A stretch of 27,145 nt of DNA from a virus, in IMG/VR virus record IMGVR_UViG_3300046811_000023, positions 1-27,145 of that record. The stretch is one strand, 5' to 3'. Below are positions 15,687 to 23,158 of the stretch, piece after piece. Every line of letters starts with the position of its first letter. Position 1 is the stretch's first letter. The translations under genes were made by a program, and so were the position numbers. The notes under the pieces were generated by a model that did no database searches, was not told where the DNA came from, and worked only from the letters and a program-made list of their open reading frames with translations.

Positions 15687-16028
15687 ATGGCTACCTATAA
15701 GGATAGCCAGAAGCAAGAGGCCCGCCTAGCTAAGCAACTAGGCGGGACTCGTAATTCTGGTTCAGGTAATGGTTGGATTAGAAAGAGTGACGTACGATCT
15801 GAGGATCTATTGGTGGAGGCCAAGATTACTTCCGCCAAATCTTTCTCCGTGAAAGACGATGAGCTTCAGAAAAATATCGGTTACGCTATTGTAGATGGAC
15901 GAATGCCGATCTTTCTGGTAGAGTTCAAGACTACTGGTAATTCCTACGTTATCTTGGCGGAGGATGATTTCTTGGACTTGAGAGAAAGAGCAACGAATGG
16001 TCATGGATCTACGGAAGACGGCACCTAG
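15687..16028 (+). CDS. PD-(D/E)XK endonuclease, Holliday-junction-resolvase-like, 113 aa
   Basis: GTRNSGSGNG then RKSDVRSEDLLVEAKIT matches the phage resolvase/nuclease signature, with candidate catalytic residues D35, E44 and K46 (D...E-x-K). The N-terminal helix QKQEARLAKQLGG is also typical. The family cleaves branched or recombination DNA. GGAG is 6 bases before the ATG. The 3' end overlaps the WhiB-like gene by 32 bases in another frame. A second, RuvC-type resolvase is encoded at 22486-23001, so the two probably differ in substrate. Confidence 0.8.
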   Translation: MATYKDSQKQEARLAKQLGGTRNSGSGNGWIRKSDVRSEDLLVEAKITSAKSFSVKDDELQKNIGYAIVDGRMPIFLVEFKTTGNSYVILAEDDFLDLRERATNGHGSTEDGT

Positions 16029-16335
16029 ATGGTTTGATGACAGTAATCCCGATAAAGAGGCTAGATGTATCAAGTTTCCAGCCGATTCGAAGTATGACCC
16101 GTGGTTTCCGGAAGAGGACATGGAGCAGACCTACCTTGAGGCCAAGGATATTTGTCTTGGTACTTATGTAGGATCGCCATGTCCTCTTCTTTCCCAATGT
16201 CTGGAGTTTTCATTGGTGAACAACGAAAGGCACGGATGCTGGGGAGGTACCACCCCCGAAGAAAGAATTGCTATCAGAAGGGAAAGACGATTACAAATAT
16301 TGGCAAGGGCTGGGGCAAGCCCAGCGGTAGGCTAG
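15997..16335 (+). CDS. WhiB-like iron-sulfur transcription factor, 112 aa
   Basis: Four cysteines (C24, C53, C62, C68) would bind a [4Fe-4S] cluster, followed by the HGCWGGTTPEER turn and a basic RRERR patch that contacts DNA. This is the WhiB (Wbl) signature, known only from actinobacteria and their phages. The second and third cysteines are separated by eight residues (C-LGTYVGSP-C), not the usual two. An extra Cys81 is in the turn. Wbl proteins bind the sigma factor region 4, so it may redirect host transcription. An in-frame ATG at 16003 is an alternative start. It overlaps genes on both sides. Confidence 0.93.
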   Translation: MVMDLRKTAPRWFDDSNPDKEARCIKFPADSKYDPWFPEEDMEQTYLEAKDICLGTYVGSPCPLLSQCLEFSLVNNERHGCWGGTTPEERIAIRRERRLQILARAGASPAVG

Positions 16336-18182: not shown

Positions 18183-18872
18183 TTGAAGGTAACACTTATT
18201 GCGCAGACTCAAATGGTTGACCTACCTGATTCTGTGGCAGGAACAGCTTTTGCTGACTACGATAACAGTTCCTTCTCCTTTGATGCGGATCGCCTCGCAC
18301 ATTTTGCGGGGCGTTCCTGCTATCAAGCATGGGATATGCCAAGGGAGGAAACAGCCAATGATGTGGGCTATCTGGACAATATCATTAAGCAGGGTCACTT
18401 CTCGGTTCTTGAGCATGCTTCGGCTACTTTCTATATTGAAGGTATTAGTAGAAACCTTACACATGAGTTGATCCGCCACAGGCATCTGAGCTATAGTGAG
18501 CTGTCTCAGCGCTTTGTAGATGTGTCCGAGATGGACTTCATCACCCCTCCTGCTGTGATTGATGGTTTTCCCCATAAACTCAAGGGTGCTCATATGGCAC
18601 TTGACGACTACGAGTATGCAGTGTCACAATTGACTGCACAAGGTCTTACAGGCAAGAAGCTTCGGGAAGCGACTAGAGCCTATCTACCAAGCGGTATGGA
18701 AACCAAGATCGTAGTCACTGGTAATCATCGTGCTTGGCGTGATATGCTCCAGAAGCGCTACAGTGTCCATGCAGACGCTGAAATTTGTGAGCTGAGTTCT
18801 ATTTTGTTGATTAAACTACGTGAACTAGCTCCCGCCACCTATCAGGATTTTCCTAAGGAGCCATTTCAATGA
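18183..18872 (+). CDS. thyX: Flavin-dependent thymidylate synthase
   Basis: This 229-aa enzyme makes dTMP from dUMP using FAD, NADPH and methylene-tetrahydrofolate. The ThyX signature RHRHLSYSELSQR lies at residues 98-110, and GHFSVLEHASATFYIEGISR precedes it as in the family. The C-terminal YLPSGMETKIVVTGNHRAWRD segment is also typical (here the middle is shortened to YLPSG and GNHRAWRDMLQ). The start is TTG 18183 with GAGGAAA upstream. With the RNR it gives the phage its own thymidine supply. Length is normal. Confidence 0.96.
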   Translation: MKVTLIAQTQMVDLPDSVAGTAFADYDNSSFSFDADRLAHFAGRSCYQAWDMPREETANDVGYLDNIIKQGHFSVLEHASATFYIEGISRNLTHELIRHRHLSYSELSQRFVDVSEMDFITPPAVIDGFPHKLKGAHMALDDYEYAVSQLTAQGLTGKKLREATRAYLPSGMETKIVVTGNHRAWRDMLQKRYSVHADAEICELSSILLIKLRELAPATYQDFPKEPFQ

Positions 18873-19292: not shown

Positions 19293-19460
19293 ATGGTTTC
19301 CGTGTTCAGTGACTACACACCTACTATGGTTTGCATAACGCATATGGCCTTTGTACCGTGTAGGCATGGAGAGCCACACAGCCCTTGCCAGACTACGAGC
19401 GAGGGTGATAAGGTAGAGCTTGTCAGGAAGCATCAATCGAAGGAGAATGACAATGACTGA
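19293..19460 (+). CDS. Cys/His-rich peptide, 55 aa
   Basis: From ATG 19293 the frame contains MVCITHMAFVPCRHGEPHSP followed by Cys, so it has three Cys and three His in about 20 residues, a plausible zinc site. The C-terminal half is charged. The start lacks a clear ribosome site and GTG 19302 is an alternative; the stop overlaps the next gene by 8 bases. It is called because of its Cys/His pattern and because the stretch is otherwise empty. Confidence 0.5.
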   Translation: MVSVFSDYTPTMVCITHMAFVPCRHGEPHSPCQTTSEGDKVELVRKHQSKENDND

Positions 19461-19647
19461 GCCCGTTCTGATGATCCGTGCCAAGGACTTCCGTCCGAAG
19501 CCTACCAGCCGCTACGCTTCTGGTAGTTCCACTGGTAGCGGAAGCAAGAAGCGCAAGAAGACCCCTAACAAGGTTAAGCCTACGCACCAGCACGTTATGG
19601 TTATTGGCGCCAACGGTAAGACCAGTTGGATTTGGCGAGAGATTTAA
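19453..19647 (+). CDS. Highly basic small protein, 64 aa
   Basis: AAGGAG stands about 7 bases before ATG 19453. The N-terminus (TEPVLMIRAKDFRPKP) leads into a Ser/Gly linker, then a basic block GSKKRKKTPNKVKPTHQH, and ends in a strand HVMVIGANGKTSWIWREI. The charge suggests nucleic acid binding. No family is recognised. A strong terminator follows directly. Confidence 0.7.
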   Translation: MTEPVLMIRAKDFRPKPTSRYASGSSTGSGSKKRKKTPNKVKPTHQHVMVIGANGKTSWIWREI

Positions 19648-19851: not shown

Positions 19852-20188
19852 GAATTTCAAGAAGAAGGAATATATTGAGATCTGGTATAGCGATCTCGGT
19901 AGGTTCTTTGGTGAGTATTTTGGCTGTAAGTTCGAAATGCACGGTCTACTCGACCATCCCAGTCAGAATAGCTATTTCACCTATGAGGTTCCCAGTTACC
20001 GTGATTGGGAGTGGGAGTGGAACGAAGAGATGAAGAAGCAGATTGACAATCCCAATAAGGGAGACGAGATTCGCGCGGCTCTAAAGAATGGTGATACTTC
20101 TGAAGCTTCTATGGAAGCCCTTTTGGATATTCTGCATGATAATGGTGTAATTCCTACTGGAGACTATCTAGTCACCGTGTGGTGGTGA
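19838..20188 (+). CDS. Hypothetical protein, 116 aa
   Basis: AAGGAG selects ATG 19838. The protein is Trp/Glu-rich (SYRDWEWEWNEEMKKQ) with a helix SMEALLDILHDNGV near the end and a final strand DYLVTVWW. It has the same Trp/Glu flavour as the 90-aa product at 4829-5101 (LPWEWNDV), but homology is not shown. The stop overlaps the next ATG (TGATG). Confidence 0.7.
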   Translation: MDLPKNFKKKEYIEIWYSDLGRFFGEYFGCKFEMHGLLDHPSQNSYFTYEVPSYRDWEWEWNEEMKKQIDNPNKGDEIRAALKNGDTSEASMEALLDILHDNGVIPTGDYLVTVWW

Positions 20189-20352
20189 TGGAACCTCCGA
20201 TATGCCCTAAATGCGGGACCAGGGAACAAGTTTTCCGTATAGTAGACACATATCATGTACGACTTCGTGTGATAAAAATCAATATACCCATTGCGCATGA
20301 ACTTGATGGATGGCTTTGTTACTCATGTGCAGTTTATATGGATAAGGAATAA
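20188..20352 (+). CDS. Zinc-ribbon peptide, 54 aa
   Basis: It starts in a TGATG overlap. C6-P-K-C9-G and C44-Y-S-C47 form a four-cysteine ribbon with a 34-residue beta-rich middle (VFRIVDTYHVRLRVIKINIP). It is the first of a run of mini zinc genes reaching 21177. Function unknown; nucleic acid or protein binding is the usual role of such ribbons. Confidence 0.68.
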   Translation: MEPPICPKCGTREQVFRIVDTYHVRLRVIKINIPIAHELDGWLCYSCAVYMDKE

Positions 20353-20353
20353 A

Positions 20354-20572
20354 ATGCGCGTATCTGAGCTTATTGAACTTCTCTCGGAATTGCCTCCGCA
20401 GCATCAAATCCTTTTGCAAAAGGATTCAGAGGGCAACGCATATCGCCATCCTACAGGTGCTTGCGTAAGCTACACAACTTCGCTAGACTTTGAGGAATAT
20501 GAACCCGAGTTTGTATATGATGATCCTGACGGCGAACCTGAAAACTATATGGAACTGGTGATAATCTGGTGA
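20354..20572 (+). CDS. Small conserved-looking phage protein, 72 aa
   Basis: AAGGA is 7 bases before ATG 20354. The opening RVSELIELLSELPPQHQILL followed by QKDSEGNAYRHP is a pattern seen, from memory, in many phage and prophage small proteins, where a helix, the double Pro and the D-x-E-G-N loop are kept. Their function is unknown. The second half is acidic (DFEEYEPEFVYDDPDGEPEN). Confidence 0.75.
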   Translation: MRVSELIELLSELPPQHQILLQKDSEGNAYRHPTGACVSYTTSLDFEEYEPEFVYDDPDGEPENYMELVIIW

Positions 20573-20661
20573 ATATACTTCCGTGGAAGTGCGAGAATTG
20601 CGGTAAGATCAATCATTCCAAAATGACATATTGTACCTTTTGTAAGGAATTGCGCCCCTAA
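20569..20661 (+). CDS. Solitary RanBP2-type zinc finger, 30 aa
   Basis: The GTG start overlaps the previous stop (GTGA). W6-K-C8-x2-C11-x3-N15-x6-C22-x2-C25 matches the RanBP2-type finger consensus W-x-C-x(2-4)-C-x3-N-x6-C-x2-C at every position, and the whole protein is that finger. In eukaryotes such fingers bind single-stranded RNA or ubiquitin; what it binds here is unknown. The exact match is hard to explain by chance in a junk frame. Confidence 0.7.
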   Translation: MNILPWKCENCGKINHSKMTYCTFCKELRP

Positions 20662-20739
20662 ATGTGTCCCATTTGTGGTAAGGATATTATAGGTGGCGGA
20701 ATTCTTTGTAGAAAGTGTAGGGAAGTAAGTGGACGATAA
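20662..20739 (+). CDS. Minimal zinc ribbon, 25 aa
   Basis: The ATG directly follows the previous stop. C2-P-I-C5-G and C16-R-K-C19 are joined by a Gly-rich loop (KDIIGGGIL), so the product is little more than a zinc ribbon. A ribosome site is not clear (AAGGAA is about 13 bases upstream), so it may rely on re-initiation. The next gene starts within its last 11 bases. Confidence 0.5.
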   Translation: MCPICGKDIIGGGILCRKCREVSGR

Positions 20740-20857
20740 TAACGATAAGAAATGTTGTATTTGTGGGAAGTTAGCCGCAAAAATGTTGAGTTCCCACGAG
20801 TATCCAGGGCCGAATTGGTTCTGCACTGATCACGCAAAGGAGTGGCAAAATGGCTAA
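20729..20857 (+). CDS. C2-CH zinc-finger peptide A, 42 aa
   Basis: The GTG at 20729 has AGGGA 5 bases upstream. After an acidic start (MDDNNDKK) come C9, C10, C12 and C32-x2-H35 (CCICGK, then FCTDHAKEW). It resembles the peptide at 21019-21177, which has C-x2-C-G then F-C-x2-H, so the two may be related. Function unknown. Confidence 0.62.
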   Translation: MDDNNDKKCCICGKLAAKMLSSHEYPGPNWFCTDHAKEWQNG

Positions 20858-21011
20858 GCATGCTAAGGAAACGGGCGTGGCACCTGCGTACACGCGGGAT
20901 CTGTCGCCCACTAATGTTATAAAGAACGGAGAGGATCTGGCCAATAGCGTTAAGGTTATTGACGACTCCATTGCCAAGCATCCAATTCCGCCCCCAACTG
21001 TCAAGGAGTAA
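20850..21011 (+). CDS. Hypothetical peptide, 53 aa
   Basis: AAAGGAG lies about 7 bases before ATG 20850. The sequence opens MAKHAKETGVAPAYTRDL and ends in a Pro-rich tail (KHPIPPPTVKE). No motif is seen. It separates two related zinc peptides and overlaps the first by 8 bases. Confidence 0.6.
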   Translation: MAKHAKETGVAPAYTRDLSPTNVIKNGEDLANSVKVIDDSIAKHPIPPPTVKE

Positions 21012-21018
21012 TACATAT

Positions 21019-21177
21019 ATGGGTTCTCACGGTGAAGAGGCTTGTGTGAAGTGCGGACAGAAAGAAGGCTTAACCTGGATTTCTTGGTATCAGACCAAGA
21101 GAGGTAAGGGGGCCTTGTTCTGTGAGCAGCACGATGCCGAGGAGGTCGAGCGCTTTATGGAGGAAAGACGATCATGA
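21019..21177 (+). CDS. C2-CH zinc-finger peptide B, 52 aa
   Basis: AAGGAG is 10 bases upstream of ATG 21019. C9-V-K-C12-G and F-C35-E-Q-H38 are the probable zinc ligands, with a Trp/Tyr-containing loop between them (LTWISWYQTKRGKG). A charged helix AEEVERFMEERRS follows. The ligand pattern and the helix match the peptide at 20729-20857. Confidence 0.68.
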   Translation: MGSHGEEACVKCGQKEGLTWISWYQTKRGKGALFCEQHDAEEVERFMEERRS

Positions 21178-21362
21178 CAAAAAAGCTCAATAAGAAGGAT
21201 GTTGAGCGTCAGATTGCCGATTTACAAAAGCAATTGGAGGATATCAAGCACAAGTATCGTTTTCAGCATATACATTCCTATGACAAGCCCGAATACGAGC
21301 GGCTGGAAAAGGAAATTATTGCAGGTATTGCCAAGGCTAAGTCATCACTACGATACTTGTAA
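21174..21362 (+). CDS. Coiled-coil protein, 62 aa, probably extended by stop loss
   Basis: It starts in an ATGA overlap. Nearly the whole protein is a charged coiled coil (KKLNKKDVERQIADLQKQLE, then EYERLEKEIIAGIAKAKS). The last residues SLRYL appear to be an extension: changing base 21346 from C to G would create a TGA stop at 21345-21347 and, in the same bases, an ATG for the next gene. Not recognised otherwise. Confidence 0.7.
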   Translation: MTKKLNKKDVERQIADLQKQLEDIKHKYRFQHIHSYDKPEYERLEKEIIAGIAKAKSSLRYL

Positions 21363-21751
21363 CAGGAAGTCGTCATTTCTCTTGGGATAATCGTCTTATC
21401 GTATTTCAGGCTTTGAACAGGGCAGGTATCAATGGTAAGGACAATATTCTTATTCATGGTGCCTGCCCTGTTGGGTCGGACGTTCCATACAACCCCTACA
21501 AGGGTGCTGACGGCCTCGCAGACCTCCATGCACGTCTCCTTGGATGGAAAGTACTTCCCCACCCTCCCAAGCCGTCTGAGGGCCGTTCTAGGGCTCAGCA
21601 GTTCGCCATGCGGAACCAAGAGATGGTTGACTTACTGCCCCATAAGGTGCTAGCCTTTTATGTACGCGATGAGGAGAATCGCGGAACGAAGATGACCGTG
21701 GAAATGGCTCGTAAGAAGAATCTATGGATAGTGGAGTTCTGGAATGAGTGA
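21344..21751 (+). CDS. SLOG-fold (DUF2493/YspA-like) protein with non-canonical start
   Basis: The frame encodes TTILVTGSRHFSWDNRL, the nucleotide-binding first strand and G-S-R loop of the SLOG/DUF2493 family, then ILIHGACPVGSD, a DGLADLHARLLGW helix, and AFYVRDEENRGTKMTVEMAR, all as in the family. No ATG, GTG or TTG precedes the G-S-R loop; the first is TTG 21413, which would remove it. ATC 21344 has AAGG 7 bases upstream and is the best candidate start. SLOG proteins bind nucleotides or related ligands. The upstream stop/start junction may have been damaged by one substitution. Confidence 0.75.
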   Translation: MTTILVTGSRHFSWDNRLIVFQALNRAGINGKDNILIHGACPVGSDVPYNPYKGADGLADLHARLLGWKVLPHPPKPSEGRSRAQQFAMRNQEMVDLLPHKVLAFYVRDEENRGTKMTVEMARKKNLWIVEFWNE

Positions 21752-21935
21752 CTATACAATATACGCGGTAGCTTGTGCTGAACAGCTTGTCCCCAATGCT
21801 ATAGAGGACGGAGACTGGTTTGGTTCTTTGATGGCGGCCTTTTCAACGGCAGATCAAATGTCATTTGAAATGAATGATGGTCCATATAAGGTTTATGAAG
21901 TAGTAATTAGGGAGCTGACTGATGGGCTGGAATAG
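21744..21935 (+). CDS. Hypothetical acidic protein, 63 aa
   Basis: It overlaps the SLOG gene by 8 bases (ATGAGTGA). It opens SDYTIYAVACAEQLVPNAI and continues with a helix SLMAAFSTADQMSFEMN. It resembles the layout of the small proteins at 7720-8198 (strand, then helix, then strand) but homology is not shown. Not recognised. Confidence 0.65.
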   Translation: MSDYTIYAVACAEQLVPNAIEDGDWFGSLMAAFSTADQMSFEMNDGPYKVYEVVIRELTDGLE

Positions 21936-22173
21936 CGCCAATATTTATTTCGATGTGGTTGTTGAGAAGCTTCAGAACCACGATATTGATTCAGATACTC
22001 AATATGACATACTAAAGGCTTTGGCCAAGGAGCTTACGGATAACGATTGGGATACTCTTGATGAGTCTCTGGAAGCCTTCCCCAGTAATAAGGCTGTTAT
22101 TCGTGTAATGGAAGAGTACGACGTGTATCTTCCCTGTACTTGTAAGTGCTGTCCGCATGAGAGGAATTGGTAA
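21922..22173 (+). CDS. Small helical protein with C-terminal Cys cluster, 83 aa
   Basis: The start GWNSANIYFDVVVEKLQ with the later TDNDWDTLDESLEAFPSN resembles, from memory, a small actinophage family of unknown function in which the D-W-D-T-x-x-E-S motif is kept. A C-terminal CTCKCCPHERNW adds four cysteines and a His, a possible metal site. It overlaps the previous gene by 14 bases. AGGGAG at 21908-21913 is the likely ribosome site. Confidence 0.7.
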   Translation: MGWNSANIYFDVVVEKLQNHDIDSDTQYDILKALAKELTDNDWDTLDESLEAFPSNKAVIRVMEEYDVYLPCTCKCCPHERNW

Positions 22174-22301: not shown

Positions 22302-22504
22302 TGTCCCTTGTATTCTATGAGCAGGAATGGCATGACGGTAGTCGTTCTTGGCATCGCAGTCCTTCTGATATCCTTGAGTTCGCCAGGAATCAGGAGACTG
22401 TTCCTACTCGATGCGGTACGCACAAGGCAATTCGTACGGATAACCCCACCCAGTTACACAAGATTAAGAATAGTGGATTAGGTATATGGGTGAAGCAATA
22501 CTAG
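22301..22504 (+). CDS. Hypothetical protein, 67 aa
   Basis: TAATG start. The sequence opens SLVFYEQEWHDGSRSWHRSP and ends HKIKNSGLGIWVKQY. It is basic and Trp/His-rich. GGGGGATG at 22289-22296 could be the ribosome site. It overlaps the resolvase gene by 19 bases. Not recognised. Confidence 0.65.
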   Translation: MSLVFYEQEWHDGSRSWHRSPSDILEFARNQETVPTRCGTHKAIRTDNPTQLHKIKNSGLGIWVKQY

Positions 22505-23001
22505 GGGAGCTACTTAAGCCCGAACTCTGGATTGGAGTAGACCAATCGTACTCAGGGTTCGGGCTTGTTATGCTGGACAATGACGGCTATACGGTAAAAT
22601 TATGGAAATTCAAAAACTCAGGATCGGAGTCCGGAAGACTTTATGAGATTTACGAGACTTTACGAGCGTGCTTCCAATGGTGTGAAGAGAATTACTCGCG
22701 CGTGTATATGGCTATGGAAGGATATGCACATGGATCACGATTCAATCGTGAGAAACTGGGAGAACTTGGAGGGATTGTCAAACTCGCGTGGTATTCCATC
22801 AACGGGACAGATCCTACTGTCGTACCGCCGACCGTACTGAAGAAATACGTAACAGGTAAAGGTACAGCGTCGAAAGATCTAATGGTTTCAACTGTCAATG
22901 ACAGGTGGGCAGTTGGTATCAAGGACAATAATGTGGCCGATGCTATCGGCCTGGCACACTATTTGAAGGATAAGCATGGCGATATTCAAGAGGACTTGTA
23001 A
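22486..23001 (+). CDS. RuvC-like Holliday junction resolvase, 171 aa
   Basis: The RNase H-fold catalytic acids are D19 (IGVDQSYSGFG), E78 (YMAMEGYAHG) and D147/D152 (KDNNVADAIGLAHY). Helix IYETLRACFQWCEEN and the segment VVPPTVLKKYVTGKGTASKD also follow the RuvC layout. The enzyme resolves four-way junctions made by the RecA-like pathway, and is a separate enzyme from the PD-(D/E)XK protein at 15687-16028. Start ATG 22486 lies 19 bases inside the previous gene and has only a weak ribosome site. Confidence 0.88.
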   Translation: MGEAILGELLKPELWIGVDQSYSGFGLVMLDNDGYTVKLWKFKNSGSESGRLYEIYETLRACFQWCEENYSRVYMAMEGYAHGSRFNREKLGELGGIVKLAWYSINGTDPTVVPPTVLKKYVTGKGTASKDLMVSTVNDRWAVGIKDNNVADAIGLAHYLKDKHGDIQEDL

Positions 23002-23116: not shown

Positions 23117-23120
23117 GCAG

Positions 23121-23158
23121 AAGCCCGAATACTCTATACTGGGTATTCGGGCTTTTTT
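23121..23158 (+). terminator. Strong rho-independent terminator
   Basis: AAGCCCGAATAC (23121-23132) pairs perfectly with 23143-23154 around a 10-base loop and runs into TTTTTT. It ends the long early transcript and isolates the unit that begins at 23212. Confidence 0.93.

Follow-up and report, generated by a model that had tools for sequence, protein, structure and literature searches.

An array of one-zinc mini-genes at a conserved locus of Streptomyces-phage relatives, with families that differ between lineages

Why should a phage carry, within about 1 kb, several reading frames that each encode little more than one four-ligand Cys/His site, and are these frames genes at all? The window analysed here is a virus record in IMG/VR, 27,145 bases long; it covers part of the genome of an uncultured soil relative of Streptomyces phages. 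Its DNA polymerase shares 67-69% identity with the homologues of GiJojo, Alone3, LuckySocke, pSt2308 and BRock, whose genomes of 112-116 kb keep their main genes in a common order; further uncultured relatives (among L007-L024 and L089-L108) were collected from IMG/VR via ThyX and RuvC. The trees of these two flanking proteins conflict, as is expected for mosaic phages, and both are weakly resolved.

A sequence-only reading of the window had claimed five zinc mini-ORFs of 25-54 aa between 20188 and 21177. All five begin where it had placed them and carry one four-ligand site each (Table 1), which puts them in the descriptive class of one-domain zinc mini-proteins (fewer than 70 aa, a single four-ligand Cys/His site). 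The tight junctions that it had described are likewise present, with TGATG at 20186, where the array joins the gene upstream, GTGA at 20569, an 11-bp overlap at 20729 and ATGA at 21174; the overlaps of the array measure 11, 8 and 4 bp, and at 20662 an ATG comes immediately after a TAA. When ORFs of 20-90 aa with the pattern C..C-n-C..[CH] were counted, six lay on the plus strand of the window and none on the minus strand, against a mean of 0.165 and a maximum of two in 200 dinucleotide shuffles of the window; 2000 shuffles of the 1-kb region never yielded more than one zinc ORF, against five observed. The ORFs at 20569 and 20662 share a frame with a single TAA between them (20569-20739), so that reading through this stop would fuse them into a double zinc ribbon. 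In relatives, however, 20569 occurs without 20662; such a fusion is therefore not general and was rejected.

Table 1. Features of the thyX-ruvC interval and its borders (window coordinates)
Feature	Position	Strand	Remarks
ThyX, left border of interval	18183..18872	+	
Outlying Cys/His mini-gene, family H	19293..19460	+	C-x2-H ... C-x-H ... C; 64% identity over 44 aa with L008:11472
Zinc mini-gene, family G	20188..20352	+	54 aa; C-x2-C-x34-C-x2-C; homologues L008:11236, L022:10938
Conserved gene, no zinc motif, interleaved	20354..20572	+	72 aa; homologues in most relatives, including BRock and pSt2308
Zinc mini-gene, family F	20569..20661	+	30 aa; W-x-C-x2-C-x10-C-x2-C, RanBP2-like motif; homologues L007, L008
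Zinc mini-ORF, no homologue	20662..20739	+	25 aa; C-x2-C-x10-C-x2-C; in frame after 20569, one TAA between
Zinc mini-gene, family E	20729..20857	+	42 aa; C-x2-C-x19-C-x2-H; homologues L007:11425, L008:12687
Gene without zinc motif, interleaved	20850..21011	+	53 aa; homologue L007:11706; AAGGAG 7 nt before ATG
Zinc mini-gene, family D	21019..21177	+	52 aa; C-x2-C-x22-C-x2-H; predicted treble clef
Coiled-coil-like gene separating array from SLOG gene	21174..21362	+	62 aa
DprA-like/SLOG gene (YspA, cpYpsA-related)	21341..21751	+	PF10686 at E=2.6e-6 (27.6 bits, cut-off 28.2)
RuvC-like resolvase, right border of interval	22486..23001	+	GiJojo counterpart annotated RuvC-like
Strong terminator-like hairpin closing the block	23119..23156	+	16 pairs, T-rich tail

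Conservation of the Cys and His positions in relatives had been set beforehand as a test of the array. Homologues of the window peptides were reached through flanking genes and not by direct tblastn of the named phages, which gave no match for the 20188, 20729 and 21019 peptides and only a chance-level one for 20569. Four of the five ORFs have homologues that keep most or all of the ligands, the single exceptions being confined to L008, in which the family F member lacks the fourth Cys and the family E member reads C-x3-C; both families keep all four ligands in L007. Family G was also recognized weakly in L003/L004, and family D was found in L007, L008 and L022 with C9, C12, C35 and H38 invariant. 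A profile search of 14 related genomes detected family D in L007 and L022 only, and D is thus lineage-restricted. No homologue of 20662 was found among the relatives. In all eight families measured, pN was lower than pS in every non-identical pair across relatives, most clearly in family C, whose GiJojo and pSt2308 genes differ at 11 third codon positions but encode the same amino acids; because synonymous changes have reached saturation in most pairs, these ratios show constraint and not its strength. The ORFs at 20188, 20569, 20729 and 21019 are real genes under amino-acid constraint. The similar peptides that had been pointed out elsewhere in the window fared unevenly: 19293 is clearly conserved in L008 and 15285 partly so (L008, L019), whereas no meaningful homologue turned up for 4737 or 12758, and 23039 proved to be an ATG inside a longer ORF starting at 22976, for which no homologue was found either.

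The zinc genes are concentrated at one place. Across 17 genomes, the interval between thyX and ruvC holds 40 zinc ORFs in 48.7 kb (0.82 per kb), against 11 in the remaining 423 kb of the same sequences (0.026 per kb) and 0.030 per kb on the opposite strand; at least one lies in the interval in 15 of the 17 genomes, and at least two in 12. Because these genomes are kin, the ratio of 0.82 to 0.026 is a better guide than the nominal binomial p of 5e-30. In the relatives the sets lie within the interval, mostly directly upstream of the DprA-like/SLOG gene, which adjoins the array in most of them; GiJojo, pSt2308 and L007 have three zinc genes each, BRock has two, and Alone3 and LuckySocke have four each plus one three-Cys relative. 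A scan of 336 strand-loci (both strands, some overlapping) returned eight with at least three zinc ORFs per kb, all but one from this phage group. Which families occupy the site depends on lineage, with A (33 aa), B and C (both about 45 aa) in the named phages and D, E, F and G in the window and its kin. The observation thus holds, and is stronger than the sequence-only reading could know. That reading had called the array a store of minimal binding modules, and this part of it is supported: the genes are real and constrained, and they occupy one fixed site whose families change.

Many members of these families carry no annotation in GenBank. Conserved mini-genes without a feature lie at L002:23421-23796 (GiJojo), L005:28833-29208 (pSt2308) and on the complement of L006:22453-22599 (BRock); the family A gene has no feature in GiJojo or pSt2308, and family C is unannotated in GiJojo. 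Of the genes that do have labels, GiJojo gp159 (family B) is called helix-turn-helix and BRock gp56 an ISH4-type transposase domain. Even where annotation passes over them, as it often does, very short phage zinc genes can be recognized with confidence by where they lie, by their ligands and by selection.

In profile comparisons, families B and C are homologous with a probability of 97%, whereas comparing D with B or C, as unrelated pairs, gave 0.8-2.8%. Cross-matches also link G to B and C, and a weak match links D to E. These relationships point to sets that grew at least partly by duplication, and as judged from sequence the A/B/C/G group and D/E appear unrelated. Net charge is +5 to +9 in A, B and C and -2 to +3 in the window's own members. 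In the model of family D (pLDDT 83.8), a knuckle is followed by a hairpin (18-35) and then by a helix (36-51), at whose start the second ligand pair lies; this order predicts a treble clef. The model of family G is beta-rich and of low confidence. Foldseek returned nothing at E<=0.001 for either model; the nearest viral folds of D were HNH-type proteins (best E 0.038), which we took as support for the treble-clef shape only; no nuclease motif is evident in D.

No zinc protein of the window exceeded a curated cut-off in Pfam, PHROGs or NCBIfam, all matches being sub-threshold. The zinc-ribbon names that such searches returned were scattered, reflect shared cysteines in part, and were not adopted; A, B and C resemble the zinc ribbons of Fpg, transposases, TFIIS/RPB9 and primases, all below threshold. 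The RanBP2-type zinc finger (PF00641) was matched by 20569, which fits W-x-C-x2-C-x3-N-x6-C-x2-C (E=1.8e-4), but at 21.2 bits against a cut-off of 27; this assignment was rejected, and the Asn is not kept in L007 or in L008, which also lacks the fourth Cys. Similarly, the L007 member of family E resembles DUF7455 (PF24254, E=0.0034) in its C-x2-C...C-x2-H layout, but scores 15 bits against a cut-off of 27, and no window protein matches that family. Among PDB sequences, family D matched antibody and TCR chains only, taken as chance, and the top matches of family F, short C2H2-finger fragments of the 'KCxxCGK' kind, were discarded.

How might such proteins work? The reading that we favour, to which we give about an even chance, is that the array is a lineage-varying, nin-like accessory block of separately translated one-zinc adaptors in a DNA-metabolism operon. 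One polycistronic message would span the block, with coupled translation; promoter- or terminator-like sites showed no clear excess over shuffles, and separate promoters within the array were discounted. Each mini-protein would fold round one zinc ion, as a zinc ribbon in A, B, C and G and as a treble clef in D and E, and so stabilised would act as a small adaptor. Judged solely by net charge, the strongly basic A, B and C probably bind nucleic acid, and protein is the probable partner of the near-neutral D, E and G found in the window. As a group they may modulate the handling and transcription of phage or host DNA, while no single one would be indispensable. The zinc proteins matched neither a curated family nor, at a significant level, a known fold, so that their zinc binding and their targets are inferred; of 49 similar one-domain zinc proteins in Haloferax, most of those tested bind zinc and several do not (PMC11241148), so predicted zinc mini-proteins can be metal-free.

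The closest parallel is the nin region of phage lambda. NinD (57 aa) and NinF (56 aa), like the array products, carry one C-x2-C...C-x2-C site per small protein; ninD, ninE and ninF are overlapping small genes in which NinE separates the zinc pair, much as the array is overlapping and interleaved; and NinD/NinF lie between NinB/NinC and NinG in a delayed-early operon, with NinB and NinG as the recombination genes beside them, and the array too has recombination genes as neighbours. To our knowledge, about a quarter-century of lambda work has yielded no function for NinD or NinF. The two loci differ in that nin has two zinc genes and the array up to five, and in that NinF is strongly acidic (-10) whereas A, B and C are basic. 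The window thus has the overlapping small zinc genes beside recombination genes of a nin-type block, but a Pfam scan gave no NinD or NinF match for any of its proteins, and the array is consequently nin-like in working at most, and not nin. Lambda still forms plaques when its nin region is deleted (PMC10695390), and in a lambda interaction map the partners of NinD and NinF are scattered and mostly single-vector (PMC3224144). The haloarchaeal C(P)XCG micro-proteins are likewise below 70 aa, with little beyond one zinc site and many per genome, and their deletions in Haloferax give varied, non-redundant phenotypes (PMC6562870); they differ in being cellular archaeal genes not described as arrays, and no homology is claimed. 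One-zinc mini-genes as in lambda nin are already known; what is new is larger, lineage-specific arrays at a conserved site, and searches of open-licence papers for arrays of zinc mini-proteins in phages found no such locus described. Because culturable Streptomyces phages carry the locus, fixed in place while its families change, the role of NinD/NinF-kind mini-proteins during infection becomes directly testable.

The sequence-only reading had suspected host takeover, and lineage-specific sets at one site would suit an island of host-directed proteins, aimed at RNA polymerase, at restriction or other defences or at nucleases, and replaced in the course of an arms race. There are precedents for small zinc proteins by which a phage acts on its host: TraR-type proteins, including lambda Orf73, are of the DksA kind, bind host RNA polymerase and can reprogram it (PMC9239242). 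Those proteins, however, have about 73 aa, including a helical part that binds RNA polymerase, and no window protein matched the DksA/TraR family at E<=1; PADLOC gave no match for the window zinc proteins, and a single family C member matched Lar (PF14354) at E=0.0061, below threshold, an assignment that was not retained. The families are constrained, with no excess of amino-acid change, and the array sits in a replication/recombination operon, its place beside thyX, SLOG and ruvC suiting a DNA-metabolism role at least as well as takeover. We therefore regard a takeover or counter-defence island as possible but rather unlikely. A bolder form, in which the site is an exchange locus where each lineage maintains a varying set of two to five independent one-zinc adaptors against different host targets, seems to us doubtful; if true, it would make the site a counter-defence or transcription-control island built of the smallest possible proteins.

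The constant neighbourhood, and the ATGA overlap between the final zinc gene and the dprA-like gene in GiJojo, Alone3, LuckySocke and pSt2308, would fit detached zinc domains or subunits of the SLOG/DprA-like, RuvC-like or other recombination proteins. Yet L011 and L012 carry the dprA-like gene and ruvC without an array, L007 carries an array without a detectable dprA-like gene, and the neighbours remain constant although the zinc families vary, which makes this reading improbable; we favour the nin-like accessory block over it, as over takeover. That the array consists of chance ORFs or of remnants of a broken multi-zinc protein might be argued from the shortness of the ORFs, from ribosome sites that are weak or absent for several of them, and from 20662, in frame one stop after 20569 and without a homologue. 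The shuffle controls, the site-specific enrichment, the ligand conservation and pN<pS make such an origin most improbable, and for 20188, 20569, 20729 and 21019 it is contradicted.

Several neighbours of the array merit mention. The SLOG frame is open from just after the TAA at 21338 and encodes VTGSR within 21338-21413; once this stretch is added, the E-value against PF10686 falls from 0.13 to 2.6e-6. Before VTGSR there is no ATG, GTG or TTG (the codons are GTC ATC ACT ACG ATA CTT GTA ACA), and either a rare start such as ATC or ATA or an assembly error would account for this. Scanning with the SLOG gene for further relatives confirmed none. A basic 64-aa protein with a KKRKKTPNKVKPT stretch (19453-19647) is kept near the array in most related genomes. 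At 21922-22173, an 83-aa gene has a C-terminal CxCxCC[PE]HE motif conserved in L020, L022 and L091, likely another metal site in an operon shared with the array. In L008, cysteine-rich acidic small ORFs with 8 to 14 Cys (L008:13853-13987 and L008:14179-14391) lie between the dprA-like gene and ruvC. Upstream, at 15997-16335, a WhiB-like iron-sulphur regulator (PF02467, 42.9 bits) overlaps its neighbours and is present in the named relatives too.
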